Shown here piece after piece: positions 144-19,444 of a stretch of DNA of 64,000 nucleotides. Both the position numbers and the translations under genes were made by a program. The DNA comes from Candidatus Brocadiaceae bacterium (GTDB lineage: Bacteria > Planctomycetota > Brocadiia > SM23-32): positions 1 through 64,000 of the forward strand of contig JAAYEJ010000005.1 in the NCBI GenBank assembly GCA_012728835.1, given 5' to 3'. The notes beneath the pieces were generated by a model. It made no database searches, was not told where the DNA came from, and saw only the letters and a program-made list of their open reading frames with translations. Within the stretch, counting starts at the first letter, position 1, and every line of letters starts with the position of its first letter.

Positions 144-173
144 TTGACTACCCAATGTAGTTCGTGCTATGCT
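144..173 (+). promoter_or_regulatory. Sigma-70-type promoter just outside the insertion sequence
   Basis: TTGACT (144-149) and TATGCT (168-173) are separated by 18 bp. The element sits 18 bp beyond the insertion-sequence end and points into the Cys-rich/LolA-like/C39 cluster. It would start transcription near position 180. Confidence 0.4.
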
Positions 174-567
174 CCTTGTCATAGTGCAGGCAGCACGCAC
201 CTCGTGCGCAGTGCGGCAGGTGTCAGGACGGGTGGCAGTTCTGCGTTCAGAGCGTCCGGTACCATCTGGGGTGGTGCTCCCTTCGTGCGTAGTTTGGGGG
301 GATGATGCTGAGAAGTGCAACAACAAGAGTTGCGGGGATCGCCTGGGTTGTTACGTGGCGTTTTTGAACGAGATCAAGATGGACTGTGATACGCGGATGA
401 GTGATTTGGCGGGAGCGTGTGGGGCTACTGATTACGAGAAGACCTGCGGGGAACATTACCACTGCTACTGTGTGGGTCCATTTTGGTTTCGGCCACCGCA
501 ATGCAACTGTGATGATGTTGAACCGCACTGGAAGGGCGCGGTCAAACCGCTTACTGCCGGCTGTTGA
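169..567 (+). CDS. Cys-rich small protein, function unknown
   Basis: No family is recognised. The reading frame is open from 169, but the true start must be further in because 169 overlaps the apparent -10 box. In-frame GTG codons at 184, 232 and 274 are alternatives and none has a convincing ribosome site. The last ~85 residues look like real protein: charged and aromatic residues with eleven cysteines, including paired motifs such as HCYC and QCNC, and a terminal Cys. There is no clear signal peptide. It lies about 100 bp upstream of, and in the same direction as, the secreted LolA-like/C39 genes. A disulfide-bonded or metal-binding product, perhaps a substrate of the C39-like protein, is only an inference. 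Confidence 0.45.
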   Translation: MLLVIVQAARTSCAVRQVSGRVAVLRSERPVPSGVVLPSCVVWGDDAEKCNNKSCGDRLGCYVAFLNEIKMDCDTRMSDLAGACGATDYEKTCGEHYHCYCVGPFWFRPPQCNCDDVEPHWKGAVKPLTAGC

Positions 568-669
568 GGCTATGGGTGAGTGAGTGTGTGGGCTGGGAGT
601 GCGCGAGGGGCAGGCTGTGGCCTGCCCCCTCGTTGCCGAGCGAGGGTTTGAGTGCAGGAGGCACATGAC

Positions 670-1872
670 ATGCGGATGCACTGGAGGAGCGTGCTGGGGG
701 GAGCTGGGGCCCTTCTGGTGGTGTTGGGGGGGAGTGTCCTGGGTTCGAGTGACTCGCTGGTGGCAAGTGCTGTCGCGGCGTCGAAGTCGTTTGATGAGGC
801 GATGAGGACCGGGGAAGGGGAGTGTACGGTTCGGTTTGAGGGCGTCACCACCCATGGAGCGGACGGCCAAAAACTGTCGGGCTTCGCCCGCTACGTGCGG
901 GTCGTGAATGTGCGCTTTGTGATGGATGACCAGCACATCCGAACAGACATGCGTGATGTGCGGAACGAGGTCAATGGCGTCGATGGAGAGCTCGTCGAGC
1001 GTGTGGGGGTTGAGGATGATCGCGTGCGGAAGGAGTATAAGCCTGGAGAGGACTACGCGTACGTGCACGCGAAGACAGACTTTCCGTCCGGGATAGCGAC
1101 CTTGCGCTGCGATCCACGCGATGCCTTCCTGCCGCAGGGACATAGATTGGCCGATTGGGTTGCCGAGGCAGAAGCGCGTGGGGGTGCGGTTGAGACCGAG
1201 GCGAAGGACGAGGTGGTGCGGATCAGATTCAAGGAAGCGGATGGCAGCCAGGAGGCCGTCTTTGATGTGAACGTTCAGAGCGGCGGGATTCTTGCCGAGC
1301 GGTACTACCGGGACGGCGTCTTGGGCGAGGACGTCGAGCGTCAGTTCCGCCGAGCCGAGACCGATATGGGAGTTGCCCTGGTCCCCGAGCGCGTGCGGCT
1401 GCGCGCCTACAACCCGGATGGGGGCCTTGTCTCTGAGCGCGAGATGGTCTTCGCATCTTTCCATTTCAGGGATCGGGTGTCTCAGGCGGAGTTCACGTGG
1501 CGGGGGATGGGGGTGCCGGAACACGCTCGGATCGTTGACCGGACGGCGGGGGATGCCATGTACGTTCTCGGTGGGGAGGCGCACATACAAGACGCCCTGG
1601 ACACTCTGGTTGCTGGTGCCGCAGAGGAGGAGGCGGGAGGCACGCTCGGCAGTGCAGCAGGGGACGCTGGAGGTCCATCCGTGGGAGTTGCTGAAGGGCC
1701 GTCGGATTCAGATGGCCCTGTGGGCAGTGACCCGATGTCGGCCGCGCATTCTGACGGACGCAGGGGAAGCAAGGCGGCGCTGTGGACAGGTTTTGCATGT
1801 GCTGCCGTAATCCTCTGCTTGCTCGTCGGGGTGCAACGTTGGCGACGGCATCGCCGAGAGAGGGGGAGATGA
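670..1872 (+). CDS. Secreted LolA-like protein with C-terminal membrane anchor
   Basis: This is a 400-residue protein of unknown function. ATG at 670 is chosen because AGGAGG (656-661) sits 8 bases upstream; an in-frame GTG at 652 would overlap that site. The N-terminus is a signal peptide (basic RMHWR, then a Gly/Ala/Leu/Val core). Residues ~35-310 alternate polar and hydrophobic residues in the manner of beta-rich LolA/LolB-like periplasmic domains. A Gly/Ser/Pro-rich linker (~325-365) leads to one transmembrane helix near residues 368-390 and a basic tail (RWRRHRRERGR). The stop overlaps the next start (ATGA at 1869), so the two are translationally coupled. The protein at 3884 has the same layout. 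The LolA resemblance is structural in style and not a firm family assignment. Confidence 0.65.
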   Translation: MRMHWRSVLGGAGALLVVLGGSVLGSSDSLVASAVAASKSFDEAMRTGEGECTVRFEGVTTHGADGQKLSGFARYVRVVNVRFVMDDQHIRTDMRDVRNEVNGVDGELVERVGVEDDRVRKEYKPGEDYAYVHAKTDFPSGIATLRCDPRDAFLPQGHRLADWVAEAEARGGAVETEAKDEVVRIRFKEADGSQEAVFDVNVQSGGILAERYYRDGVLGEDVERQFRRAETDMGVALVPERVRLRAYNPDGGLVSEREMVFASFHFRDRVSQAEFTWRGMGVPEHARIVDRTAGDAMYVLGGEAHIQDALDTLVAGAAEEEAGGTLGSAAGDAGGPSVGVAEGPSDSDGPVGSDPMSAAHSDGRRGSKAALWTGFACAAVILCLLVGVQRWRRHRRERGR

Positions 1873-3512
1873 CAATGGGGCGTTCTGTTGCGGTTGCGGT
1901 TTGTTGCGCGATTGTGGTCCTCGGCGCGCAGGAGGCCATTGCGGAGGACGAACCGCGGTTCGACTGGCGAAAGGACTGCGGGCCAATGGCTGCCTACATG
2001 GCAGCGAGGTACTTTGAGCACAGTGTCGACTTGAGCGAGTGTGTCGCTGGCTGCACGAGGAATGAGAGGGGAATGGTCGATGCGCTGGAGGTCGTCAGGG
2101 TCCTTGAGCGCTTGGGGTTGCACGCAGTCGGTGTGCGGGCAACGCCGAGGCAGCTCATGGATGCGTTGCGGCCCGGGCGAGGCGGGATGATCCATGTGGG
2201 TGGAAACCACTTCGCTGTCGCGTGTAACCCCAAGGAAGGCTCCCTTCTGATCCTTGATTCACGCGATGCCCGGCGGGGCTCGCCAAAGCGTATGGATGCC
2301 GACACATTGTCCTCGATCTGGGATGGGGTGACCATCATCGTCTCCGGAGGGGAGATCGAGCCCTACCTACCTGCCCCTCGTGCTGCGTCGGAGGCAGATC
2401 ACGAGCGGGCTAAGTCGGAGCCCCTCCCTGATCGCACTGCAGAGCCATGTTCCGGAATCCAACAGGGGACCAGCGAGATCAGGCTCGAAGCCGTGGGTCC
2501 CGACGGCGTCCGCACTCTTGCAGTACCGGTCTCAGCTTGGACACCGTCGAGTACCAGTGGGCCGATGCCGCTCGATGATGGCGCCGTTCAGGACGTCCCG
2601 GTCAAGGTTGCACTGCAGGGAGATGGTCCTGTCAGGGACCCGACGTTTTTTGTTCGTGCCGGTTGTAAGGCGGGGCTGGAGCGCGCATTGTGTACGCATC
2701 CGTTCGAGGGGCGAGCAACCGAACTGCGCGTATCGCTGCCTCCGGGCGACGATTACTTGGCGGAGGTCACATGGGAGAGCGAAGGCGCCAACGGCCTGAG
2801 TTGGTGGTCAACCCTGTACCACCCCTTTGGGCCGGATGTGGACCTGAGTCTCATCGCCCTCACGGGGCGTTGTGCTCTGGCTGGCGGCGTGGGGCACTTG
2901 GCAGACACTGGCCCTGATCCCGCGGGAGGCGGCACGCGCGTTCCGATCTACCGGGCGTTTGTCCTTTACGACGTCGGAGAGGGAACAGAGGTATTCACGC
3001 GCCACCTCCAGCAGGATCCAGCTGTCAAGGAGCAGTTTGGGTTCGACAACCTACCATCCGGTGACGCGTCGCTTGTGACCGTTGGCGTTGTCCCCGGGGG
3101 CAGGCAGAGGTTCGTCTGGCGCAGGCGCGTTCACCTTGCGCCAGGGTCGGTGAGCCGTGCTGATCTGGAATGCCCAAGGCTCGGGGATTGCGCAGTCCGA
3201 GGTAGGATCACGGGGGCGAAGCCGCTGGACGGGGCCTGGCAGGCAGTGCTGCTGAGACCTCCGTCTGCAGATCCCGTTCGTTGGGCAGGAATCATCGACA
3301 TAGTCCTTGATGACGCGATCTCGCTGATTGTGGCGGATCGCCAAGGCAACTACATCTTGCAGGGGCTTATTCCGGGTCAGTACACCCTTACGGCTCTGCA
3401 GTTGTTTGGCCGGGCGCCCGGCAGCCCGATCGTCCAGCAGTCCAGTCCCCTGACGCTTGTGGCGGGCGATGAGGCGTCCGTGGACTTCGACTTGGCACGT
3501 TCACCTGACTGA
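1869..3512 (+). CDS. Secreted C39-peptidase-like protein with beta-sandwich C-terminus
   Basis: This protein of 547 residues overlaps the upstream gene by four bases; ATG at 1875 is an alternative with better spacing from GGGGGAG (1862-1868). A signal peptide ends near AIA. The next ~130 residues follow the C39 cysteine-peptidase pattern of bacteriocin exporters: DCGPMA (catalytic Cys), a second region with CVAGC, GGNHFAVA (catalytic His) and LLILDSRD (Asp). The Gln that normally lies six residues before the catalytic Cys is Phe here. Family C39 cleaves after double-Gly leaders. This copy has no ABC-transporter domain and is exported. The remaining ~370 residues look like repeated carboxypeptidase-regulatory or Ig-like beta domains (for example GNYILQGLIPGQYTL). 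A protease or a pseudo-protease adaptor are both possible. Confidence 0.65.
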   Translation: MTMGRSVAVAVCCAIVVLGAQEAIAEDEPRFDWRKDCGPMAAYMAARYFEHSVDLSECVAGCTRNERGMVDALEVVRVLERLGLHAVGVRATPRQLMDALRPGRGGMIHVGGNHFAVACNPKEGSLLILDSRDARRGSPKRMDADTLSSIWDGVTIIVSGGEIEPYLPAPRAASEADHERAKSEPLPDRTAEPCSGIQQGTSEIRLEAVGPDGVRTLAVPVSAWTPSSTSGPMPLDDGAVQDVPVKVALQGDGPVRDPTFFVRAGCKAGLERALCTHPFEGRATELRVSLPPGDDYLAEVTWESEGANGLSWWSTLYHPFGPDVDLSLIALTGRCALAGGVGHLADTGPDPAGGGTRVPIYRAFVLYDVGEGTEVFTRHLQQDPAVKEQFGFDNLPSGDASLVTVGVVPGGRQRFVWRRRVHLAPGSVSRADLECPRLGDCAVRGRITGAKPLDGAWQAVLLRPPSADPVRWAGIIDIVLDDAISLIVADRQGNYILQGLIPGQYTLTALQLFGRAPGSPIVQQSSPLTLVAGDEASVDFDLARSPD

Positions 3513-3883
3513 GGGATCCGCCTCGGCGCTCAGGTCGCTCTCCAGCGTAGCCCTATCCTCCGGGCGGGCACTGGCGAAGATACGATGAAGAGGATACCCT
3601 GTAAATCCATTCACCCCAGCCGGACTCTAACATCCCGGGTGGTCCAGTCAAAGGGGGCAGCTCAGTGGGGCAGATTTGTCGAGTTGCCTGTAGGCCCTGG
3701 GGTGCGTTGTCACCTGCGGGAAATGCTGCCGGGATGCGCACTTCTGCGAGTGCTGAACGTACAGTGCGGATCAGGAGGCATGGTATCGCGACCTCACGGG
3801 TTCTGAAGAGTGCAGCTGAATCGACAAGCAAGACAGAGTGGAGTGCTCTGGCGCGCCGGCATCTCTAAGCAGAGGTTAGGCCG
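3513..3883. other. Intergenic stretch, no gene recognised
   Basis: Short open frames occur (for example 3585-3806), but none has a ribosome site or protein-like composition. A weak CTGAG/CTCAG hairpin follows the upstream stop. No convincing promoter was found. Confidence 0.4.
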
Positions 3884-5377
3884 ATGAAGTCACTGGGTGG
3901 TGTGGCCGTGGGCTTAGTGAGTTGGGTGACAGTGTGGACACAAGTGGTGGGTGGGTCGGTTCTTGCAGCGCCGGCGACACCGGACGCCTCCGAGCTCTGC
4001 GCGCGGATAGCCTATGCTGCTAGCCAGCGTATTGAATCGGGCGTCTTCAAATGCCACTTGGTGAAAGCGTTTGATCCGACCCCGCGGCCGAAGGGGGCAA
4101 TCGAGCGGGAGGTTGAGGAGTTTGAAGCGCAACTGCGGGCCGACGTGCGGTCAGGGAGGGTGCCTGCGAGTTGGCAGGAGGAGCTCGATGGGCATCGAGC
4201 GGGGGCTTCGTGGGAGAACTTCCTGCAAGACCCTCAGGTGCAGCATCTGGTTGAGGCGAAGATAAGGAGGACGGTTCAATCGCAGCGTGACTCTCTCGTT
4301 GACTTGTCGAAGACAACGGAAGAGGAGGCTGAGCTAAGATACGTGCTTGGCAAGGACGGTCGGGTTCGCAAGGAGACCACGTACGAGTTCTTCAAGCAGG
4401 GTGCCGAGGAAATTCCACAGTTCCGGGGGCGGCTGGACATCGTGGTATTGACACCGGAGCAGAAGCGGACCTTTACCCCCGCGCACAAAGTGGGGACTAT
4501 TCACCTGGGCTTCGATCAGAATCGGCGGGTTCGGTTATGGGACATGAACTGCAGGACGCCGCTTGCGGGGGGGTGTCCAGCTTCGAGCCTTGCGAAGCCG
4601 GAGAACATGGTGTCAGTGTCCGAGGAGGAGACTGGAGAGGGCAATGCGCTGCGGGTAGTGTTCAAAGACTCATTCAGCGAGCCCGGGGTGGGAAACGTAC
4701 ACGTGTTGTGGGTGTTGCCCGACAAAGGGTACAGGCTGCTCCGGGAGGAGGTATACATCCATGGCAAACTGATTATGAAGGAGGAGTGCAGCGGATACAT
4801 TGAGATTGAGCCGGGGCTGTGGTACCCGATGCGACAGAGGTCGGAGCTTGTTAAGGCCCAACTCCCTGCGGGTATTGAGGCAGCAGTTAAGGCCGGTCGA
4901 TTGGATCGGGCCTCCGAAGAGGTTTTTGCCGCGCAGACGATCCTTGAGTGCCGTTCCACTGAACGCGTGTTCTCGGTGGTGCAGTGCAACGCTGTGATCC
5001 CGGAGGACAGTTTCGCGTTGCCATTTCCCGAGGGTACACGCGTGTACGACTACGTTGCTGGCAGCGAAGAGAAGGCCCTCATATACGTTGTTGGAGAGCG
5101 CGAGGAGGCGCCGACAGCCGCTCTGCTTGAGGGGCTCGCGGAGGACACAAGCACTGGCGTTGTGGCGACAAAGGGCCCTGATGACCACAGTAGCCCATTG
5201 CCTGCAGTGCCGCGGCGACCGCCAGATGCCAGCAGAGGGGGCACGGGACGAGGATCCGGGTGGTGCGCACCGGCAGGGCTGATTGCGGTGGTTTGCGTGG
5301 GTCTCTGTATTGCTGTTATGGTGCATGGAAGGCGCAAGCGCGGAAGGGCACAGAGAGGAGGGGCGGCAGGTGACTGA
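3884..5377 (+). CDS. Secreted LolA-like protein with C-terminal membrane anchor (second copy of the layout)
   Basis: The product is a 497-residue protein of unknown function. The start has AGAGG (3871-3875) 8 bases upstream. A signal peptide ends near VLAAPA. Residues ~30-130 are helical and charged. Residues ~150-390 are strand-rich with LolA-like spacing, including paired cysteines in MNCRTPLAGGC. A Pro/Ser/Gly-rich linker precedes one transmembrane helix (APAGLIAVVCVGLCIAVMV) and a basic tail (HGRRKRGRAQR). This repeats the architecture of the protein at 670, with little obvious sequence identity. The two flank the C39-like gene, which suggests a joint envelope function. That link is inferred from gene order only. 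Confidence 0.65.
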   Translation: MKSLGGVAVGLVSWVTVWTQVVGGSVLAAPATPDASELCARIAYAASQRIESGVFKCHLVKAFDPTPRPKGAIEREVEEFEAQLRADVRSGRVPASWQEELDGHRAGASWENFLQDPQVQHLVEAKIRRTVQSQRDSLVDLSKTTEEEAELRYVLGKDGRVRKETTYEFFKQGAEEIPQFRGRLDIVVLTPEQKRTFTPAHKVGTIHLGFDQNRRVRLWDMNCRTPLAGGCPASSLAKPENMVSVSEEETGEGNALRVVFKDSFSEPGVGNVHVLWVLPDKGYRLLREEVYIHGKLIMKEECSGYIEIEPGLWYPMRQRSELVKAQLPAGIEAAVKAGRLDRASEEVFAAQTILECRSTERVFSVVQCNAVIPEDSFALPFPEGTRVYDYVAGSEEKALIYVVGEREEAPTAALLEGLAEDTSTGVVATKGPDDHSSPLPAVPRRPPDASRGGTGRGSGWCAPAGLIAVVCVGLCIAVMVHGRRKRGRAQRGGAAGD

Positions 5378-5786
5378 TGGTGTGTGTAAGGAGCGCAGGG
5401 GGGGCGGGGGCTACGCACAGCGACTGGCAAGCATCCGGCGTGCGGGAGTGGAGCCAGCGGATTCCCACTGCAAGGGTGCTGCAGACTGGGTGCGTTTCCC
5501 GTGCAGGAACCCCAGTCGGATGCTCGCTGGCATGGCGACCGCGCCGCGGGATGCAGAGCGCCGTGTCCTGGCGGAGTTCGAGCAGTTGCCGGTTCCCGCG
5601 GATGCCTTCCTCCGCGCGCCGCTTCCTGCCCGCCCTGGGGGGACGGATAGAGATCGTGACTTCGCGCGGAGGTCTGGGCTTCGAGCCAGTCCCCAGACTG
5701 CCGTAGGCCGCGCTTCGCGCCGGCCCAGTGGGGCCTGTCGGCTGTGGGGGCCTTCTGCCGTGCAACACCTCCTTGGGTCATGTTAG
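5370..5786 (+). CDS. Possible small hypothetical protein overlapping the previous gene
   Basis: A GTG at 5370 has an excellent ribosome site, AGGAGG at 5356-5361 with an 8-base spacer, and overlaps the previous stop by 8 bases. The frame runs 138 codons. Composition is poor (Arg/Ala/Gly/Pro-rich, five scattered Cys) and resembles out-of-frame translation, so only the Shine-Dalgarno site argues for it. No family is recognised. Positions 5787-5957 that follow hold a TATACT box at 5838 without a good -35 partner. Confidence 0.25.
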   Translation: MTDGVCKERRGGGGYAQRLASIRRAGVEPADSHCKGAADWVRFPCRNPSRMLAGMATAPRDAERRVLAEFEQLPVPADAFLRAPLPARPGGTDRDRDFARRSGLRASPQTAVGRASRRPSGACRLWGPSAVQHLLGSC

Positions 5787-5957: not shown

Positions 5958-6707
5958 GTGATGGGCATTATTAGGACGGGCTGGCCGCAAGTCAGAGGGA
6001 ACTTGGCCCAGGAACTCCTGGTGGATCCCTATGTGGTCTGGCATGCGCGGGCGACCGATTCTACCGACTTTCTGCTGGTTGGCTCGACGCGGGACTCACG
6101 GAACCTCGCGCGTGTCTATCCGAGTGCTCCGAAGCACGACGTCTGGCTCGAGGCCCACGACGAGAGCGCGGCATCCTTGCTGCATGGACTACCTGCACGG
6201 CGGAGCTTGTTCTTTCAAGGAGCGACCTCTCTCGGATTGCGCCTGATCCAGGAAGCATTCGTCGGTGCGGCGGACGTGTGTGGTGTCTTCTGCGTTGCTG
6301 ACCGCAGCCGGTTCCAACCGGTATTCCGGCATGAAGCCCGGAAGCTTGAGCCGCGAGATTGGCAAGCTCTGGAGCGTTGCGATGCGGAGTACGAACCTCC
6401 AGGGCCCGGCAATGACTGGGAGCGTGTGTACGGAAGCTACAAGGGCGACGAACTCGCCGGCTACGCGTGGGCTTGGTGCGCCGACGGGATGGCGGAGGTG
6501 CACGTGAAGATCCGCCCCGAGCACTGGCGCCAGGGCTACGGCCAGAGCGTGGTGTCAGCGGCGACGGAGGACATGCTCCGAGCGAACGACGTCGTCCTCT
6601 ATCATGCCACGGGGGAGAACAACCTGGCGAGTCTACGCCTGTGTCTCTCCCTCGGTTTCACACCAATCAGAACAACGTTCGCGTTCACAGGCGTGCGCCG
6701 GGCATGA
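5958..6707 (+). CDS. GNAT-family N-acetyltransferase
   Basis: This 249-residue protein transfers an acyl group from acetyl-CoA to an amine of unknown identity. The GNAT core is in the C-terminal half: the acetyl-CoA-binding motif A appears as KIRPEHWRQGYGQSVVSAA (R/Q-x-x-G-x-G type). ATGENNLASLRLCLSLGF follows, as in motif B of these enzymes. The N-terminal ~130 residues have the divergent first GNAT half seen in two-lobed family members. The start may be GTG 5958 or ATG 5961, with AGGCGG just upstream. It is likely a passenger of the accessory segment, and its neighbours give no substrate clue. Confidence 0.65.
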   Translation: MMGIIRTGWPQVRGNLAQELLVDPYVVWHARATDSTDFLLVGSTRDSRNLARVYPSAPKHDVWLEAHDESAASLLHGLPARRSLFFQGATSLGLRLIQEAFVGAADVCGVFCVADRSRFQPVFRHEARKLEPRDWQALERCDAEYEPPGPGNDWERVYGSYKGDELAGYAWAWCADGMAEVHVKIRPEHWRQGYGQSVVSAATEDMLRANDVVLYHATGENNLASLRLCLSLGFTPIRTTFAFTGVRRA

Positions 6708-7486: not shown

Positions 7487-8352
7487 GTAACCGTTCACGG
7501 ATTTCCTGAGAATCTGCCCTCGCGGTTTGCGTATCCTGCCGCATCATGGCAGACGCAGCGACATCCGAATGCCCCAACTGCAGGCGGCTCGAAGCCCTTC
7601 TGGTCGCTCTGGAAGCACGCGTGACGGAGTTGGAGGCGCACAACGCCGCGCTTGAGTCCGAGATTGCCCGGCTGCGCAAGGACTCCTCCAACTCGCACAA
7701 ACCGCCGTCCAGCGATATCGTCAAGCCGCCGGCGGCCAGGCGGCGGCGCGGCAAGAAACGCCGCATCGGTGGCCAGCCGGGCCATCCGCGACACGAGCGG
7801 ACGCCCTTTCCGCCCGACCAGATCGACCAGACGCGCCAGTATCGGCTCGAGTGCTGCCCCGACTGCGGAGGGCCACTCGAAGAGGTACGGCGAGCGGCTT
7901 CTGGATCGCCTGCGCGTTCTGTTCGGGATCATCCACCGGCGGCCGAGCATGGCGCCGGACCGGTTCGCGTGCGCCCTGGAGACCCAACGGAAGCTGATCG
8001 TGCACGTGGCCACGCATCCGCCGTGGGGGAAGGAGGCGCGCAACATGGCCGAGCGGTTCCGTCGACACGGCAAGGCCCACTTCCGTTTCATCACGACGCC
8101 GGGCGTGGAGCCGACGAACGACCTTGCGGAGCAGGCGCTGCGGTTTGTGGTGATCGACCGGCGGATGACGCAGGGCACGCGGGGGGAGGCCGGACGGCAG
8201 TGGTGCGAGCAGTTCTGGACGGTGCGTGCCACCTGCGCCCAGCAGGGCCGCTCTGTCTTCGATTCTCTTCACGCTGCCGTCACCGCCCATTTCGCGGGCC
8301 AGCCGGCGCCGTCGCTTCTGCCGGCTTGACCGGGAGACCCGTGAACGGTTAC
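7487..8352 (+). mobile_element. IS66-family element, internally deleted
   Basis: The element is bounded by perfect 14-bp inverted repeats, GTAACCGTTCACGG at 7487-7500 and its complement at 8339-8352. They begin with GTAA as IS66 ends do. At 866 bp it holds only a broken transposase. IS66 elements make 8-bp target duplications, but the flanks (7479-7486 GGGTTCGG and 8353-8360 GACATTTC) do not match. The two sides were therefore brought together by deletion or recombination after insertion. The left flank is a phosphodiesterase gene and the right flank an ISNCY-like end. Confidence 0.85.
7546..8329 (+). pseudogene. IS66 transposase with the middle deleted and frames shifted
   Basis: The N-terminal ~113 codons from ATG 7546 are typical IS66: a coiled-coil leucine-zipper-like start, SSNSHKPPSSD, a basic KKRRIGGQPGH, then the zinc-finger half CCPDCGG. 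At about 7884 the reading shifts frame and resumes in the C-terminal domain (ERLLDRLRVL, then TTPGVEPTNDLAEQALR with the last acidic catalytic residue, and RSVFDSL). Some 200 residues between, including the first catalytic Asp residues, are missing compared with the ~450-520 residues usual for the family. It cannot encode an active enzyme, although the intact ends could still be moved in trans. Confidence 0.85.
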
Positions 8353-8401
8353 GACATTTCTATCTGCCGTGTATAGTGGACATTTCTATCTGCGGTTGAC
8401 A
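8353..8401. mobile_element. Orphan ISNCY-like insertion-sequence end
   Basis: Two direct 16-bp motifs, at 8352-8367 (first base shared with IS66) and GGACATTTCTATCTGC at 8378-8393, precede an outer TTGACA at 8396-8401. This is the same arrangement and direction as the end at 79-126, with different spacers, so it is a relative rather than the same copy. The transposase that belonged to it is gone. IS66 sits directly against it. It interrupts the betaine-binding protein gene that resumes at 8403. Confidence 0.6.
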
Positions 8402-12464: not shown

Positions 12465-12652
12465 GCCGATCCCTCCTCGAACGCAGGACGCCGGCCATCC
12501 CTGTGACCACCGGGTGCCCCATTCTACCGCCCGGCGGTCGCGCATCCAAGCCGGCAGTGGATGCCGGGATGTCCGCGGCCATTCGATTCGGCCGTCGGGA
12601 GCCGTTATATTGGGATGGAGGTCATGCTCCTCGATGTTCATGGGGTGGGATC

Positions 12653-13525
12653 ATGTGGGTCAGACGCTGCGGTCCGATGGTGGTGTGCCTGCTCCTGGGC
12701 GTTCTGTGCGCTTCGGCGCCTTCCTGTGGCCGTTCGGATGAGCCGGAGCCGCGTGCTCGCAAGGGCGCGCCCCGTGCCGACGCCACGACGGAGGCCACTC
12801 CGACCCCCTACGACACGGGGGAGTTCGAGCAGCTCGCCGCCGACCGGACCATCATCCTGCACTGCGGCAATTCGATGCGTCCGGCGGCCGAGGTGCTGGC
12901 GGCGGCCTTTCAGAAGACGCACGGCATCGGCGTTCAGTTCAACTTCGGCGGGTCATCCGAGCTGATCGCCAGCCTGGAGCTGGGTCAGAAGGGCGACCTC
13001 TACATGCCCCACGACCCGTATGCGAGCATGCTCGACGAGAAGGGCCTGCTGGAGCGCTACGAGGTCGTCGGCTACCTGGAGCCGGTCATCGTCGTGCCGC
13101 CGGGCAATCCGGACGGCATCCGCTCCCTGCGCGACCTGGCCACGCGGCCGTTGAAGGTCGGCCTGCCCGACGCCCGCTACGCCACCTCCGGCAAGCTGGC
13201 CATGGCGGCGTTCGAGCAGATGGGCCTGGCCGAGCAGGTGCGGGCCAATATCGGCATGGAGGGCCGGAGCAACAACGACGTCGCCGTGGCGGTGGTGCAC
13301 GGCCACGTGCAGGCCGGCATGGTCTGGAACTTCCTCGCCCGCTACTACGAGGGCCGGTTGGAGGCGGTGGCGCCCGGGGTGGAGTTCCCCGAGACCCGCG
13401 TGACCCTGTGCCTGCTGAAGAGCGCCCAGGACCGCGAGGCGGCCGAGATGTTCATGCGGTTCGCCTCGTCCGAAAGGGCCAAGCAGGTCTTCCGCGACAT
13501 GGGCTATCTGAAGAGCCCACGGTAG
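12653..13525 (+). CDS. ModA-like periplasmic binding protein (first of two)
   Basis: This exported binding protein has 290 residues and the molybdate/tungstate/sulfate-type fold. The N-terminus (basic, then a Val/Leu core, then APSCGR) could be a lipoprotein signal with a weak lipobox. The mature part starts with IILHCGNSMRPAAEVLAAAF and continues FNFGGSSELIASLELGQKGDLYMP, the usual ModA first and second ligand loops. ATSGKLAMAAFEQMG and the VAVAVVHGHVQAGMVW hinge follow. The Asn/Asp choice that selects oxyanions is not decisive by eye. It is the first gene of a run of seven ABC-related genes. The start has GGGTGGGA shortly upstream. Confidence 0.75.
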   Translation: MWVRRCGPMVVCLLLGVLCASAPSCGRSDEPEPRARKGAPRADATTEATPTPYDTGEFEQLAADRTIILHCGNSMRPAAEVLAAAFQKTHGIGVQFNFGGSSELIASLELGQKGDLYMPHDPYASMLDEKGLLERYEVVGYLEPVIVVPPGNPDGIRSLRDLATRPLKVGLPDARYATSGKLAMAAFEQMGLAEQVRANIGMEGRSNNDVAVAVVHGHVQAGMVWNFLARYYEGRLEAVAPGVEFPETRVTLCLLKSAQDREAAEMFMRFASSERAKQVFRDMGYLKSPR

Positions 13526-13564
13526 GACGGATCCCCCGCGCCCGGGGACGGAGGCATCCCTGCC

Positions 13565-14551
13565 ATGAACGGCGTCGCACGGCCCATTCTGACCATCGCG
13601 CTGGCCGTCATGGTGTCCGGCACGGGCGCCGGCCGGGCCGAGGCCTGCGTCACACCGGTATTCCAGTTCGCCCTGGAGAACTGGACGCCGTGCAACCTCG
13701 ACGTGGCCGTCGTTCATCGGGACAAGCTGTCTGCGGACCAGGAGGCGGCCGCGAACCTGCTCCGCCGAGCGGCGCACGGGGACGGGAGCGCCGCGAACGT
13801 CGACGTGCGGCTCGTGCGCGCGGGCAAGGACGGCGACTCGGGCGCACCTCTGCCCAGGATCGAGCTGCGCCTTGCCGGTGCGCGGCAGCCTGCCGCTCCC
13901 GTCTGGACGGGTGAACTGACGTCCGCCGGCGCGCAAGCCGTCCTGGATTCGCCCGCGCGCCGCGAGATCGGCCGGCTGCTGCTCGGGCGCAGATCCGCGG
14001 TCTGGGTCCTGCTGGAGGGCGGCGACCGCCGCCAGGACGAACGGGCGGCCGAGACACTGGAGCGGATGCTGCCGCGACTGGAGGCGACGCTCCAGCTTCC
14101 GGATCCGACGGCCTGGGAGGCCGCCGCCGGAACCGTCGCCTCGACGATCGACTTCGCCATGGTGCGCGTGCGCCGGGACGACCCGGCCGAGGCCGTGCTG
14201 GTCGGCATGCTGCTCGGCACGGAGCATGACCTGACGGACTTCGAGCGCACGCCCATCGTCTTTCCCGTGTACGGACGGGGGCGGGTCCTCTACGCGCTGG
14301 TGGGGCCGGGCATCAACGACCGCACGGTCACGCGGGCCGGCGAGTTCCTGGTCGGGCCCTGCTCGTGCATCGTCAAGGCCGACCATCCGGGCGCGGACCT
14401 GCTGCTGTCCGTCGACTGGGCAGCGGAGGTGGTGCCCCTCGGGCGGCCGGATGCGATTGCGCCCGCCGGCCTGAGCACCTTCCTGGACCGCCAGGCCCGC
14501 GCGGCGCGCCTGCTCTCCGAGGACGGCGGACACGGGGGGGACCCGCAATGA
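13565..14551 (+). CDS. Secreted protein of unknown family in a dual ABC operon
   Basis: This 328-residue protein has a signal peptide ending near GRAEA, and the mature part begins CVTPVFQFALENWTPC. I do not recognise a family. There are four cysteines in the mature part: two near the N-terminus and two in GPCSCIVK near residue 275, which could form disulfides or a metal site. The central part has thioredoxin-like or Rossmann-like strand patterns (SAVWVLLEGG), and LLLSVDWAAEVVPLG precedes the C-terminus. No membrane anchor is visible. The stop overlaps the permease start by four bases. That coupling suggests a periplasmic partner of the FtsX/LolD-type transporter. Confidence 0.6.
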   Translation: MNGVARPILTIALAVMVSGTGAGRAEACVTPVFQFALENWTPCNLDVAVVHRDKLSADQEAAANLLRRAAHGDGSAANVDVRLVRAGKDGDSGAPLPRIELRLAGARQPAAPVWTGELTSAGAQAVLDSPARREIGRLLLGRRSAVWVLLEGGDRRQDERAAETLERMLPRLEATLQLPDPTAWEAAAGTVASTIDFAMVRVRRDDPAEAVLVGMLLGTEHDLTDFERTPIVFPVYGRGRVLYALVGPGINDRTVTRAGEFLVGPCSCIVKADHPGADLLLSVDWAAEVVPLGRPDAIAPAGLSTFLDRQARAARLLSEDGGHGGDPQ

Positions 14552-15852
14552 CCCTCTGGGGCCTGGTCGTCAGGGAAGCCCGGTTCCGTCTGGGAGGCTT
14601 CTGCATCGGGCTTGTCTCGGTCGTGGCGGCGATCGCGTGCCTGACGGGCGCCGTGACGCTGCTGCACGCTCACGACATCCGTTCGGACCGCGTCCTGATC
14701 GAACGCGAGAAAGCGACGCGCGAGGAGATGGCGCGCATGGAGGACGACTACCGTCTGATCATGCGCGACCTCGGCCACAACGTCCTGATCATCCACCGGG
14801 ATCAGGACCTGGCCGCCCTCGTGGCCGCCGGCTACCCCGAAGTCACCATGCCCGAGGAGTATGTGCACCGCCTGGCCGACCGGGGTATCGCGACGCTCAA
14901 CCACCTGCTGCCCGTGCTCCAGAAGCGGACCGTCTGGCCGGAGCACGGCGTGGAGATCCTCCTGAGCGGCACGCCGGGCCAGACGCCCAACCGCGCCAAG
15001 AAGGGGTTCCTGACGGCCGACGGCACGGCCTACCGCGACCCGATCGTCGCAACGATCCCGCACGGTGCGGTGCGGCTCGGCAACGGGGTGGCCCGGCGGC
15101 TGGGGCTGCATGAGGGGGACAGGGTGGTCCTGATGGGGGAGGAGTTCGTCGTCGACCGCGTCCTGCCGGGCGAGGGGAACGTGGACGACATCGCCGTGTG
15201 GTGCTCCCTGGAGAAGGTGCAGCAGTGGCTGGGGCTGGAGGGGCGCATCAACGGCATCCTGGGTCTGGAGTGCATCTGCGAGGTCGACCGGCTCGGGGAG
15301 GTGGCGCGCGAGGTCGGGGCGATCCTGCCGGACGTGACCGTTCTGGAGTTCAGTTCGCGCGTGAGAGCCCGTGCACAGGCGCGCGGGAGGGCCGGGGAGG
15401 CCCACCGCACGGCGATCGCGGCCGAGATGGAGCATCAGCGCCGGATGCGGCGGGAGAGGGAGCTGTTCGCCGCTGTGCTGGTGCCGGTGGCCCTGACGGC
15501 GGCGGGGCTGTGGGTCTTCTTCCTGGTGCTGGGCAACGTGCGCGAGCGGCGGACGGAGATCGGCGTCCTGCGCGCCCTGGGCGTGCGGCAGGCGACGATC
15601 ATGGGCGTCTTCCTGCTCAAGGCCGTGGCCATGGGCGCGCTCGGCGCGGTGCTCGGCTACGTCGTGGGAGTCGTGGGCGGGGCCCTGTGGGGAGGTGTGG
15701 GGCCGACCACGGCGGACTTCTTCGGGTCCTTCCGCCTCCGGCTGTTCCTGGCTGCCGTTCTGGTGGCCCCGGCGCTGTGCGCCGCCGCGGCCTGGCTGCC
15801 GGCGATGCGCGCGGCCCGCCAGGACCCGGCCGAGGTGCTCAGGGACCGCTGA
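14548..15852 (+). CDS. FtsX/MacB-type ABC transporter permease
   Basis: The gene product is a 434-residue inner-membrane protein with the MacB/LolCE layout. One transmembrane helix lies near residues 12-37, then a large extracytoplasmic domain (~40-285). Three helices close the C-terminus: VLVPVALTAAGLWVFFLVLG, the segment after IMGVFLLKAV, and LFLAAVLVAPALCAAAAWLP. ERRTEIGVLRALGVRQATI is the cytoplasmic signature of FtsX-type permeases that contacts the ATPase. Such transporters move lipoproteins or peptides, or work as mechanotransmitters, rather than importing solutes. It overlaps the preceding secreted protein gene (ATGA) and is 6 bp from its ATPase. Confidence 0.8.
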   Translation: MTLWGLVVREARFRLGGFCIGLVSVVAAIACLTGAVTLLHAHDIRSDRVLIEREKATREEMARMEDDYRLIMRDLGHNVLIIHRDQDLAALVAAGYPEVTMPEEYVHRLADRGIATLNHLLPVLQKRTVWPEHGVEILLSGTPGQTPNRAKKGFLTADGTAYRDPIVATIPHGAVRLGNGVARRLGLHEGDRVVLMGEEFVVDRVLPGEGNVDDIAVWCSLEKVQQWLGLEGRINGILGLECICEVDRLGEVAREVGAILPDVTVLEFSSRVRARAQARGRAGEAHRTAIAAEMEHQRRMRRERELFAAVLVPVALTAAGLWVFFLVLGNVRERRTEIGVLRALGVRQATIMGVFLLKAVAMGALGAVLGYVVGVVGGALWGGVGPTTADFFGSFRLRLFLAAVLVAPALCAAAAWLPAMRAARQDPAEVLRDR

Positions 15853-15858
15853 GCGGCG

Positions 15859-16587
15859 ATGGAAGGGGAGGAGGCGATCGTGTCCGCAACGCTTCAGATC
15901 GACGGCGTCGGCAAGACCTACCGCCGGCCGGACACGGTCCAGGCGCTTTGCGACGTCTCCCTCCGGGTGGAGCCGGGCCGCTTCCACGTGGTCCAGGGGC
16001 CGAGCGGCAGCGGCAAGACCACGCTGCTGCTGGCCGCCGGCGGGCTGCTGGCGCCGGATGCGGGCGTCGTGCGCGTGGACGGGCAGGACCTCTACGCGTT
16101 GTCGGCCGAGCACCGGGCACGCTTCCGCGCGGAGCACATCGGCTACGTGTTCCAGCAGTTCCACCTGATCCCCTATCTGAGCGTTCTGGACAACGTGCTG
16201 GCCGCCTGCCTGGCCCTGCGCAGGCCCGGCGCCCGTGAACGGGCCGGGCAACTGATTGCCGAACTGGGCCTGGCCGGCCGCGCCCGGCACTTCCCGTCCG
16301 AACTGAGCACGGGGGAGCGCCAGCGGACGGCTCTGGCGCGCGCGCTGCTGAATGACCCCCGGCTGATCCTGGCCGACGAACCGACCGGCAACCTGGACCG
16401 CCGCAGCGCCCAGGTCGTGCTGGCGCATCTGCGGGACTTCGCCCGCCGGGGCGGCGCCGTCCTCATGGCCACCCATCAGAGCGACGTCCCGGCGGACGAG
16501 GTGCTGCACCTGGACGGCGGAACGCCCGCCGGCGGCCCGGAGACCGCGCGCCGTGCCCCCGATCCGCCCTGCGAGGACACCCGATGA
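15859..16587 (+). CDS. MacB/LolD-type ABC transporter ATPase
   Basis: The 242-residue ATPase partners the FtsX-type permease just upstream. Walker A is GPSGSGKTT, the Q-loop is in YVFQQFHLIPYLSV, the signature is LSTGERQR (with Thr for the usual Gly), Walker B is LILADEPTGNLD, and the H-loop is ATHQSD. The phrase ADEPTGNLD is characteristic of the MacB/LolD/FtsE group. The stop overlaps the next start by four bases, linking this exporter-like pair directly to the second ModA-like protein. Confidence 0.85.
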   Translation: MEGEEAIVSATLQIDGVGKTYRRPDTVQALCDVSLRVEPGRFHVVQGPSGSGKTTLLLAAGGLLAPDAGVVRVDGQDLYALSAEHRARFRAEHIGYVFQQFHLIPYLSVLDNVLAACLALRRPGARERAGQLIAELGLAGRARHFPSELSTGERQRTALARALLNDPRLILADEPTGNLDRRSAQVVLAHLRDFARRGGAVLMATHQSDVPADEVLHLDGGTPAGGPETARRAPDPPCEDTR

Positions 16588-17423
16588 ACGAGCCAGGCCG
16601 GGCCCTGTGGAGGATCGCGCTGCCGGCCCTGACGGCGGTCGCGCTGGTGACCGGGCTCCTGCTGGTCTTCCGTTCCCTCGCGCCGGCAGAGGACGGCCCG
16701 CGGAGCCTTCTGGTCTGCTGCGGCGCCGGGCTGCGCCCGCCCGTGCAGGAGGCGATCGAGTTTTTCGAGCGCCGTTCGGGCGTCCGCGTCGAGGCCGACT
16801 ACGGAGCCGCCAACCTGCTCCTGGGCCGGATCAAGCTCTCCGGCCGCGGCGACGTGTTCGTGCCGGGCGACGCCTTCTACGTGGCCGAAGCCCGCCGCGA
16901 GGGGATCGTGGTCGAGGAGCGCCCTGTGGCGTCGTTCGAACCCGTCATCATGGTCGCCCGGGGGAACCCGAAGGGCGTCCGCGAGGTGGCGGACCTGGCC
17001 GCGCCGGGCCTGCGGGTGGGCCTGGTGGACGAGCGGACCGCCGCCATGGGCCGCATCACGCCGGAGTTGCTTCGCAGGAACGCCGTCCCGCAGGACGATG
17101 TCCGCCGGAACACGGTTCTCGACACCGTCACGGTGACGGAACTGGCCCAGGCGGTCGCACTCGGGCACGTGGACGCCGGCCTGGTGTGGCGGCCGGTCGC
17201 CCTGCAGTATCCGGACGCCGCCGAGATCGTCGAGATCCCGCCCGACCGGAACGTGCGCTCCCCGGTCTCGGCCGCCACTCTGACGACGGCGGCGCACCCG
17301 GATGCCGCCAGCGCGTTCGTCGCGTTTCTGGCCGGGCCGATGGGGCGCGAGTGCTTCCGGCGACATCGGTACGCGCCCCCACAGGAACACGAGCCGCGGC
17401 AGGCGTCCCTGCCGGCTGACTGA
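16584..17423 (+). CDS. ModA-like periplasmic binding protein (second of two)
   Basis: The protein of 279 residues has an N-terminal transmembrane or uncleaved signal helix (ALWRIALPALTAVALVTGLLLVF) and no lipobox. The ModA pattern follows: LLVCCGAGLRPPVQEAIEFF, ADYGAANLLLGRIKLSGRGDVFVPGD, and TVTELAQAVALGHVDAGLVW. It differs from the first copy in having CCGAG where that has HCGNS, so the two may bind different ligands. It immediately precedes the importer permease and ATPase genes and is probably their main binding protein. Confidence 0.75.
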   Translation: MNEPGRALWRIALPALTAVALVTGLLLVFRSLAPAEDGPRSLLVCCGAGLRPPVQEAIEFFERRSGVRVEADYGAANLLLGRIKLSGRGDVFVPGDAFYVAEARREGIVVEERPVASFEPVIMVARGNPKGVREVADLAAPGLRVGLVDERTAAMGRITPELLRRNAVPQDDVRRNTVLDTVTVTELAQAVALGHVDAGLVWRPVALQYPDAAEIVEIPPDRNVRSPVSAATLTTAAHPDAASAFVAFLAGPMGRECFRRHRYAPPQEHEPRQASLPAD

Positions 17424-17442
17424 GCAACGCGGAGTCGGCGCC

Positions 17443-18297
17443 ATGTCCTCCCACTCGAACAGAAGGCCGCACAACCACACGGCGGACAGCCGCCGAACCG
17501 CCCCGGCAGGGGGGCCGCGTCTTCTGCGTCTCGTCGCGGGAGCGCTTCTTGTGGCCTACACGGGGTTCATTGCCGTGCTGCTGGTGGTCAGCCTGCTGTA
17601 CGTGCGTCCCGCCGACTTCGCCGCCGTGATCCGCAGCGCGGACGTCCGGCACGCGGCCTGGCTGACCACGTGGACGTCCCTGTTGAGCGCGTTGCTGGCG
17701 CTGGGGTTCGCCTTGCCGGTCGGCTACGCACTGAGTCGCTTCCGGCTGCCCGGTCGGGCGGTGCTCGACACGCTGGTGGACGTGCCGATCATCCTGCCGC
17801 ACCTCGTGGTGGGCGTGGCGCTGCTGATCTTCTTCCGCACGGCGCTCGGGCGTGCCATCCAGGGCCTGGGCCTCGCGTTCGTGTATGCCCCGGAGGGAAT
17901 CGTGCTCGCCCAGTTCGTCTGCGTCTCGCCGTATGCCGTCCGCACGGTGAAGGCCGCCCTGGACGCGGTGGACCCGCGCATCGAGGACGTGGCGCGCACG
18001 CTCGGATGGCCGGCGCACCAGGTGTTCCTGCGGGTGACGCTTCCGATGATCCGCAACGGCATCGTGGCGGGCGGCGTCATCGCGTGGGCGCTGGCCATGG
18101 GCCTGTACGGCCCTCTCATGGTCTTCGCGGGGACCACGCGCAGTCGCACCGAGGTCATGGCGACGTCGGTGTACCTGGAGCTTTCGGTCGGCCGCATCGG
18201 CCCGGCATTGGCCATCGCGATCCTCCTGGTGCTCTTCACGATGGCCTGCCTCCTTGTGTTCAAGCGGCTGGCCGGGAGGACGGGCTCGCTGTGGTGA
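17443..18297 (+). CDS. ModB/WtpB-type ABC importer permease
   Basis: The protein has 284 residues and about six transmembrane helices after a polar N-terminal ~30 residues. The EAA-type loop that docks the ATPase reads VEDVARTLG in sense (here IEDVARTLGWPAHQVFLRVTLP). It is the molybdate/tungstate/sulfate class, and the segment YGPLMVFAGTTRSRTEVM is usual in that class. GGAG lies about 8 bases before ATG 17443; the frame opens further upstream without support. It forms the importer half of the operon with the binding proteins and the ATPase at 18344. Confidence 0.8.
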   Translation: MSSHSNRRPHNHTADSRRTAPAGGPRLLRLVAGALLVAYTGFIAVLLVVSLLYVRPADFAAVIRSADVRHAAWLTTWTSLLSALLALGFALPVGYALSRFRLPGRAVLDTLVDVPIILPHLVVGVALLIFFRTALGRAIQGLGLAFVYAPEGIVLAQFVCVSPYAVRTVKAALDAVDPRIEDVARTLGWPAHQVFLRVTLPMIRNGIVAGGVIAWALAMGLYGPLMVFAGTTRSRTEVMATSVYLELSVGRIGPALAIAILLVLFTMACLLVFKRLAGRTGSLW

Positions 18298-18343
18298 GAC
18301 GACCCGCGATGAACGGAAGGGGAGGGACCGGCCCGCCGGCGCC

Positions 18344-19444
18344 ATGCTTCGTGTAGAGCACATCGGGCTGCATCTGGGGAGCTTCGCGCTCAAGGACGTC
18401 TCGTTCGAGGTCCGGCGGGGGCAGCGCTTCGTCCTGCTCGGGCCGACCGGCTGCGGCAAGACGCTGCTGGCGGAGATCGTCTGCGGCCTGCGGGCGCTCG
18501 ATGCCGGGTGTGTGCGGCTGAACGGGCGGGACATCACGCGCCGGGACCCCGCACGCAGGAACATCGGCTACGTGCCCCAGGACTACGCCCTGTTGCCGTT
18601 CAAGACCGTCGAGTGCAACGTGGCCTTCGGTCTGGAGGCGCGCCGACTGGCCCGCGCGGAGGTCGCCCGCCGGGTCGGCGAGATGCTCGAACTGCTCGGC
18701 ATCTCCCGCCTGGCCGCCCGTCTTCCCAGACACCTCTCGGGCGGCGAGCGGCAGCGCGTCACCCTGGCCCGCGCGCTGGTCATCCGGCCCGATCTGCTGG
18801 TCCTGGACGAGCCCCTCAGCGCCCTGGACGAGGGCAGCGGCGAGGAGACGATCGCGCTCCTGCGCACGCTGCAGGCGGAACTGAACACGACCACGCTCCA
18901 CATCTGCCACCGGCTGGAGGAGGCATTCGCTCTGGCCGACACCATGGGGCTGATGCGCGACGGCGCGCTCGAACAGGTCGCCCCGCCGCCGGAGCTGCTC
19001 AGCCGCCCCCGCAGCCGCTTCGTGGCGCAGTTCCTGCGCCTGTCCAATCTGGTCGAGGGCGAGGTGCGTGACCTGCCTGAGGGCCGGGCGTTCTGCGTGG
19101 ACGGCGCGGTCTGGACGCGGACGGACCGCCCCGGCGGCCCCGCGCGGGCCGTCGTCCCGCTCGATGCCCTCTCGCTGTCGCTGACCAGGCCGCCGGACGA
19201 TCCGCGTCAGGTCGTCGTTGCCGACGTGATCGCCGAGAACCGGCCGTGCGCCCTCCGTCCGTTCGTGCGCCTGGGCGGGCGCCTGCGGCTGACCGTCCCC
19301 GGCGCGTTCCCGGCAGGGGCGTGGACGGAGGGACGGACGGCGTATCTGGCCGTGCCGCGTGACCGGCTGCACGTCGTGCCCGAGGGGCCCGCGGAACCGC
19401 CGGAGCGCACCGGTGGACCGGGGGGAGACGATCTGGTAGGGTGA
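18344..19444 (+). CDS. ModC/WtpC-type ABC importer ATPase
   Basis: The product, 366 residues long, energises the permease at 17443. Walker A is GPTGCGKT, the Q-loop is in GYVPQDYALLPFKTV, the signature is LSGGERQRV, Walker B is LLVLDEPLSALD, and the H-loop is ICHRLEEA. After residue ~235 a regulatory C-terminus with a TOBE-like beta segment (VVVADVIAENRPCALRPFVRLGG) is present, as in molybdate and sulfate ATPases. The ATG at 18344 gives the normal N-terminus MLRVEHIGLHLG, although the nearest purine-rich stretch is ~18 bases away. The oxyanion transported (molybdate, tungstate or sulfate) is not settled by sequence. Confidence 0.8.
   Translation: MLRVEHIGLHLGSFALKDVSFEVRRGQRFVLLGPTGCGKTLLAEIVCGLRALDAGCVRLNGRDITRRDPARRNIGYVPQDYALLPFKTVECNVAFGLEARRLARAEVARRVGEMLELLGISRLAARLPRHLSGGERQRVTLARALVIRPDLLVLDEPLSALDEGSGEETIALLRTLQAELNTTTLHICHRLEEAFALADTMGLMRDGALEQVAPPPELLSRPRSRFVAQFLRLSNLVEGEVRDLPEGRAFCVDGAVWTRTDRPGGPARAVVPLDALSLSLTRPPDDPRQVVVADVIAENRPCALRPFVRLGGRLRLTVPGAFPAGAWTEGRTAYLAVPRDRLHVVPEGPAEPPERTGGPGGDDLVG

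Follow-up and report, generated by a model that had tools for sequence, protein, structure and literature searches.

A low-GC gene cluster at the edge of an insertion sequence

We analyzed a stretch of 64,000 nt (hereafter, the window) that corresponds to C5:1-64000, the start of contig C5 in a genome assembly of 3.07 Mb and 82 contigs whose source phylum is Planctomycetota. The cluster of interest occupies the first bases of this contig, and since the contig ends at window nt 1 (C5:1), the context to the left of the cluster is missing. The following features were recognized:

1-126, strand not given: terminal part of an insertion sequence (IS) element, inside which the contig starts; right end at ~nt 126
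144-173, + strand: promoter-like match TTGACT-18-TATGCT from a consensus scan (9 of 12 matches), which is not evidence of function
169-567, + strand: Cys-rich ORF (ORF call, codon bias, Cys excess over shuffled sequences, and position as elsewhere)
670-1872, + strand: anchored LolA-like protein P0001 with a signal peptide, LolA-like domain, C-terminal transmembrane (TM) helix, and basic tail (out-of-genome profile)
1869-3512, + strand: exported C39-like protein P0002 with an N-terminal hydrophobic segment, C39 domain, and C-terminal beta region (Pfam, profile, and AlphaFold)
1959-2348, + strand: C39 domain of P0002, with Cys37, His114, and Asp130 present and Gln at -6 replaced by Phe
3884-5377, + strand: second anchored LolA-like protein, P0003, with a TM helix at ~residues 461-481 and a basic tail (profile and Foldseek)
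7546-8376, + strand: frameshifted transposase remnant (frame-split ORFs), presumably IS66-type; right border of the island, outside the system

The ORF listing confirmed the four genes of the original prediction (169-567, 670-1872, 1869-3512, and 3884-5377), and the start/stop overlap that it described is the ATGA shared by the 670-1872 and 1869-3512 genes. A promoter had also been proposed at the IS edge; the match at 144-173 is indeed there, but the -10 box shares nucleotides with the start codon at 169. No clearly coding sequence was found between 5377 and 5786.

The right end of the IS was placed at ~nt 126 because the alignments of at least 10 further, near-identical copies from this genome all stop at window nt ~124-132. 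Many of the copies in this genome lie at contig ends, where the IS breaks the assembly. The GC content is 0.59-0.67 from position 1 to ~8.4 kb versus ~0.70 beyond, with the change (from ~0.62-0.67 to ~0.70) falling at the IS66-type remnant, and GC3 is 0.59-0.70 in the cluster genes versus 0.87-0.93 in genes elsewhere in the window. Since both values are lower in the cluster than in the rest of the window, the cluster appears to be an acquired, IS-bordered low-GC island.

The same island holds a GNAT acetyltransferase ORF (5958-6707) with weak NCBIfam matches to ArsN1 and RimI. Farther along the window, positions 12503-19444 carry two substrate-binding-protein ORFs and ABC permease/ATPase genes that resemble molybdate/tungstate-type uptake clusters. 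A paralogue of the anchored proteins, P0005, is located at the start of contig C17, again in a low-GC island, where it adjoins a DUF1573 fragment and a transposase remnant that resembles the one at 7546-8376. At ~4990 of that locus (L021), the low-GC island terminates within a TlpA-like thioredoxin gene, and the DUF1573 fragment abuts the tail of this host gene.

An exported C39 protein and its distinct group

The 1869-3512 product had been predicted to be an exported C39-peptidase-like protein, and it does combine an N-terminal hydrophobic segment with a Pfam Peptidase_C39 match (PF03412; E 3e-8, 34 bits vs a cut-off of 22). The same cut-off was also passed by proteins of five related loci (L098, L169, L171, L172, and L189). 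A C39 profile built without any window sequence picked up P0002 at E 1.2e-16, with the best shuffled sequences at E 47 or worse. In the AlphaFold model, the C39 domain (residues 31-160) has pLDDT block means of mostly 90-96, and the best-matching PDB entry is that of a double-glycine protease with a leader peptide bound (6mpz), so that the structural comparison originally suggested for this product came out in favor of a C39 fold. The C-terminal beta region gave a sub-threshold match to CarboxypepD_reg. The 547-aa protein contains no ABC permease or ATPase domain according to Pfam and NCBIfam, and direct searches with it found no relative among the contigs of its own genome and no close relative in 98 related genomes.

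P0002 retains C37, H114, and D130. Among 23 aligned C39 domains of the system described below, the Cys and the His are each present in all 23 and the Asp in 20. The Gln found six residues before the Cys in other C39 domains is absent from all 23 and is Phe in P0002. It is kept in every ABC-type C39 examined and in other free C39 proteins that lack LolA-like neighbors, with one exception (L198). Thus, the C39 proteins of the system appear to form a distinct group that keeps Cys, His, and Asp and is devoid of the Gln. This Gln has been proposed to stabilize the oxyanion, a role that is debated in the LahT150 co-crystal structure paper (PMC6363468), and for that reason its loss does not in itself mean inactivity; some of these C39 domains could nevertheless be inactive given the missing residue. 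L013 and L014 were rejected as members, as they are Gln-containing C39s without LolA-like neighbors. At L199:3284-3841, a small ORF with the leader-like sequence LSDLEMDELRGN overlaps a Gln-containing C39 gene and may represent either another peptide system or a frame shadow.

Two anchored LolA-like proteins

The original prediction regarded the 670 and 3884 products as LolA-like. This likeness is supported by an out-of-genome LolA-like profile (E 1.3e-17 for P0003, 1.8e-15 for P0005, and 1.6e-4 for P0001; best shuffle, E 47) and, for the 3884 product, by Foldseek, but not by Pfam, in which neither P0001 nor P0003 has a match; compared with Pfam, the alignment of these proteins yielded weak LolA_like matches in 2 of 18 members, below the cut-offs. 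The P0003 model has a good beta core and a low overall confidence (pLDDT 55), and with this model the best Foldseek matches were 4z48 and 3bk5 (E 2-3e-5). The best structure matches of this low-confidence model, a DUF1329 protein, an outer-membrane lipoprotein-sorting domain protein, and LprG, all belong to the LolA superfamily. The LolA-like proteins share a closing motif, F-x-x-x-F-P-x-G-T-x-V-x-D. A direct search with P0001 found nothing, and the matches of P0003 in G169 and G084 were rejected because they are located in an unrelated flavodiiron-like protein.

Relative to the LolA/LolB/LprG/RseB superfamily, P0003 may be alike in fold, as judged from its low-confidence model (4z48, 3bk5, LprG, and LolA-LolB), and the anchored proteins are alike in their conserved closing motif. 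They differ in being predicted to be held in the inner membrane by a C-terminal helix and basic tail, in being neither free chaperones nor lipoproteins, and in scoring below the Pfam cut-offs. Another LolA-like domain is found in the same genome at C42:9907-11574 (L004, P0006), where an ECF sigma factor, a membrane helix, and a LolA-like periplasmic domain are fused in one protein, followed by an ankyrin-type ORF.

The gene set recurs across Planctomycetota

An alignment limited to the C39 part of two proteins proved too weak, and profiles were grown from LolA-like loci instead. A search with P0003 led to a locus (L055) in which the gene of an anchored LolA-like protein and that of a C39-DUF1573 protein overlap, and the LolA-like profile then retrieved loci with an adjoining C39 gene in many families. 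When both profiles were applied to 392 genomes of the phylum, 12 pairs of C39 and LolA-like matches lay within 2.5 kb of each other versus 0.09 expected, and 4 of these pairs were not profile seeds. Loci chosen by the C39 profile alone again displayed LolA-like and/or Cys-rich genes beside the C39 gene, and so did loci that were collected independently by scanning named genomes with an alignment of C39-rhodanese proteins. The named metagenome-assembled genomes with related loci are labeled Planctomycetaceae, Planctomycetia, and Gemmataceae. Hence, C39 and LolA-like genes adjoin in many planctomycete families, and the gene set, whose conservation the original prediction had left to be checked, does recur.

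The variants contain further partner domains, namely, DUF1573 (L055, L101, L103, and L169), rhodanese (L189), and TPR (L098). Some loci have LolA-like and Cys-rich genes and no C39 gene, which suggests that maturation is not always needed. C39-TM-rhodanese proteins, in which the rhodanese part is a sulfur-transfer domain, are encoded at L189:4927-6156, L195:4777-5949, and L203:1889-3100, with small Cys-rich precursors as neighbors in L189 and L195 and a LolA-like gene in L203. An apparent operon at L103:3162-8473 comprises genes for an ECF sigma factor, an anti-sigma-like protein, a LolA-like-TM-DUF1573 fusion, and a Cys-rich secreted protein.

Cys-rich precursors with double-glycine leaders and natural fusions

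At the related loci, the C39 and LolA-like genes are accompanied by a small ORF that has 6-17 Cys and, as judged by a simple hydrophobicity rule, a signal peptide of the Sec type. In C39 loci, this precursor usually has a double-glycine leader (LSxxExxxIxGG/GA) between the signal peptide and the Cys-rich part. Examples, with a slash at the presumed cut site, are LSLDQLQAVTGG/GDC and LSFEQLHAITGG/GDC in L169, LSDKEQGEVWGG/QGAC in L170, LSEMSHIRGG/AC in L192, and VSAAEAATILGG/ATC in L193. Among the 22 GG/GA leaders listed, 14 have L/V at -12, 12 have E/Q at -8, and 16 have I/V/L at -4, which we take to be the classical double-glycine pattern. The NCBIfam CCRG-2 RiPP leader model matched one leader (E 5.5e-4, below the curated cut-off).

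These leaders are associated with C39 genes. Of the 131 small signal-peptide ORFs located no more than 3 kb from a C39 gene, 9 reached a score of 10 or higher with a leave-one-locus-out leader profile, compared with 3 of 810 elsewhere (p 2e-6). A partly hand-curated count placed GG/GA in 19 of 26 Cys-rich precursors of C39 loci versus 1 of 12 from LolA-like loci that have no C39 gene (p 3e-4). Both p values overstate the case, since related loci are not independent samples. Certain Cys-rich ORFs flagged by the filter (e.g., L100 1469, L196 3232, L179 4709, and L176 3134) proved to be frame shadows, and the curated counts do not include them. Some C39 loci (L190, L191, L099, and L108) have G-R, G-Q, or G-L instead of GG/GA, and parts of the leader pattern are kept in L190, L099, and L108.

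In L171, L172, and L187, a single ORF consists of a signal peptide, a LolA-like domain, a C39 domain, a GG/GA site (YEILGG/DG, KKIKGA/AD, and KQIFGG/SS, respectively), and a Cys-rich domain. In L098, TPR, C39, LSRQQMQAIRGG, and Cys-rich parts are combined in one ORF that is followed by a LolA-like gene. The fusions bring together exactly the components of the original prediction, with the presumed cut site kept between the protease and the Cys-rich domain.

Taken together, the recurrence, the leaders, and the fusions mean that the link among the components no longer depends on the gene order of one genome. A chance assembly of arbitrary exported proteins beside an IS, to which the lack of full-length relatives of P0002 itself in simple searches might point, is contradicted by recurrence far above chance, by the fusions, and by the leader association, and we regard it as highly improbable.

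The leaders also bear on whether the C39-like domain could be a leader-binding chaperone, like that of HlyB, holding the GG leader of the Cys-rich protein at the membrane. The absence of the oxyanion Gln from all system C39s examined and the lack of the second Gly in some leaders would fit such a role. A binding-only domain would, however, be expected to lose the Cys, which like the His is universal in the alignment with the Asp nearly so, and GG/GA predominates in the leaders; moreover, the role of the Gln has been questioned (PMC6363468), and the periplasmic C39 protein FapD needs its own Cys (PMC5557850). Binding alone is therefore quite unlikely in our estimate, and we retain the peptidase reading.

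The L171 and L172 fusions adjoin ECF sigma and anti-sigma genes, as does L103. Together with the P0006 fusion of this genome and the fact that the LolA fold is common to RseB, this raises the prospect of a signaling device in which the anchored LolA-like protein, in the manner of RseB, monitors the Cys-rich protein or the state of the envelope and acts on an ECF sigma factor. At most loci, including the window, there is no adjacent sigma factor, however, and the anchored proteins end in a short, basic cytoplasmic tail that has no known domain. Signaling would also leave the GG leaders and C39 fusions unexplained, although it could regulate them, and we consider it an unlikely main function.

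The Cys-rich ORF and the state of the window copy

The Cys-rich core of the 169-567 ORF (295-567) has 11 Cys in 90 aa, a number reached by 0.02% of shuffled sequences. The ORF shows coding-like codon use and occupies the position of the Cys-rich genes upstream of LolA-like genes at other loci. The original prediction of a secreted Cys-rich protein therefore holds for its Cys content and coding character, but not for secretion, as no convincing Sec signal peptide was found in its first 42 codons. Nor does an LSxxExxxIxGG leader precede the Cys-rich core, where VVWGD/DAEKC stands instead. It seems that this ORF lost, or never had, a recognizable leader. In-frame stops at 130-132 and 145-147, outside the IS end, argue against the idea that the IS simply cut off the 5' part of the gene in frame, and this idea was rejected. 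A direct search with the core gave only weak chance matches (L007 and L008), which were inspected and rejected as relatives.

The window copy may accordingly have suffered damage, be atypical, or rely on a precursor encoded elsewhere. A decayed, IS-damaged remnant that is nonfunctional here would be in keeping with the Cys-rich ORF, which has neither signal peptide nor leader, and with the location of the low-GC island, which sits at the end of a contig and is flanked by an IS end and a broken IS66-type gene. On the other hand, the three large ORFs are intact (400, 547, and 497 aa) with coherent codon use, and P0002 keeps the C39 catalytic residues. We consider decay a realistic possibility, short of the favored one, and it touches the window copy only, not the system.

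A proposed periplasmic maturation system

The recurrence, gene order, leader motif, catalytic residues, and fusions can all be read from the sequences. They point to a planctomycete-wide, ABC-independent periplasmic C39 system that would mature Sec-exported Cys-rich proteins with LolA-like partners, to which we assign a probability of roughly 0.74. The interpretation of the cluster as part of a maturation system, as originally predicted, is supported by the recurrence, by the Cys-rich Sec precursors with GG leaders, and by the natural fusions.

We infer proteolysis, its cleavage site, the localization of the components, an escort role for the LolA-like proteins, and the function of the Cys-rich product, and the steps would be as follows. 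A small precursor would cross the inner membrane via Sec, with its double-glycine leader, LSxxE(L/A)xx(I/V)xG(G/A), sitting behind the signal peptide. The Sec-exported C39 cysteine peptidase would cut after GG/GA in the periplasm and release the Cys-rich domain, and a LolA-fold protein with one C-terminal inner-membrane helix would hold or pass on the precursor or the product. DUF1573, TPR, rhodanese, or redoxin partners would be added in variants, with DUF1573 often accompanying the LolA-like proteins. Of these components, the window would supply an intact C39 gene and both LolA-like genes, together with a Cys-rich ORF lacking a recognizable leader.

Comparison with known systems and significance

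The nearest precedent is FapD of the Pseudomonas Fap amyloid system, a Sec-exported periplasmic C39 protein that is unfused to an ABC exporter and needs its active-site Cys; GG/GA sites are suspected in a partner protein, as in the planctomycete set (PMC5557850). FapD is needed for amyloid secretion, and the same study left its substrate open and called the class uncharacterized (PMC5557850). The planctomycete loci depart from the Fap system in several respects. The neighboring ORFs that were read included no FapB, C, E, or F genes and instead encode LolA-like, DUF1573, and Cys-rich partners; the GG leaders match the classical consensus and belong to a precursor that is either adjacent or fused, in contrast to the unsettled substrate of FapD (PMC5557850). 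P0002 does not match the NCBIfam FapD model (NF058616), and L172 does so weakly (E 0.0099).

With the AMS/PCAT ABC exporters (LahT150, PCAT1, and ComA; PMC6363468), the system C39s share the fold, the Cys/His/Asp residues, and the double-glycine leader pattern. They differ in the lack of a transporter or ATPase domain, in a precursor that would be exported by Sec first, and in the Gln at -6, which no system member has and which all examined ABC-type C39s retain. No description of the planctomycete LolA/C39/DUF1573/double-glycine set was found in an incomplete literature search, which is weak evidence of novelty.

As a rule, a double-glycine leader with its C39 peptidase is read as a sign of an ABC peptide exporter. 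In the planctomycete loci, the pair would act on the opposite side of the membrane, after Sec export. We lean towards a phylum-wide maturation of disulfide-rich proteins in which GG processing is uncoupled from ABC export and carried out by a Gln-less C39 peptidase, with a LolA-fold escort and self-processing fusions. Unlike FapD, the one periplasmic C39 peptidase described, the loci offer precursor-protease pairs, and even single-chain fusions, for testing substrate choice and the need for the Gln. They would also define a new set of disulfide-rich secreted proteins of Planctomycetota, which leader searches tied to ABC exporters are likely to miss.
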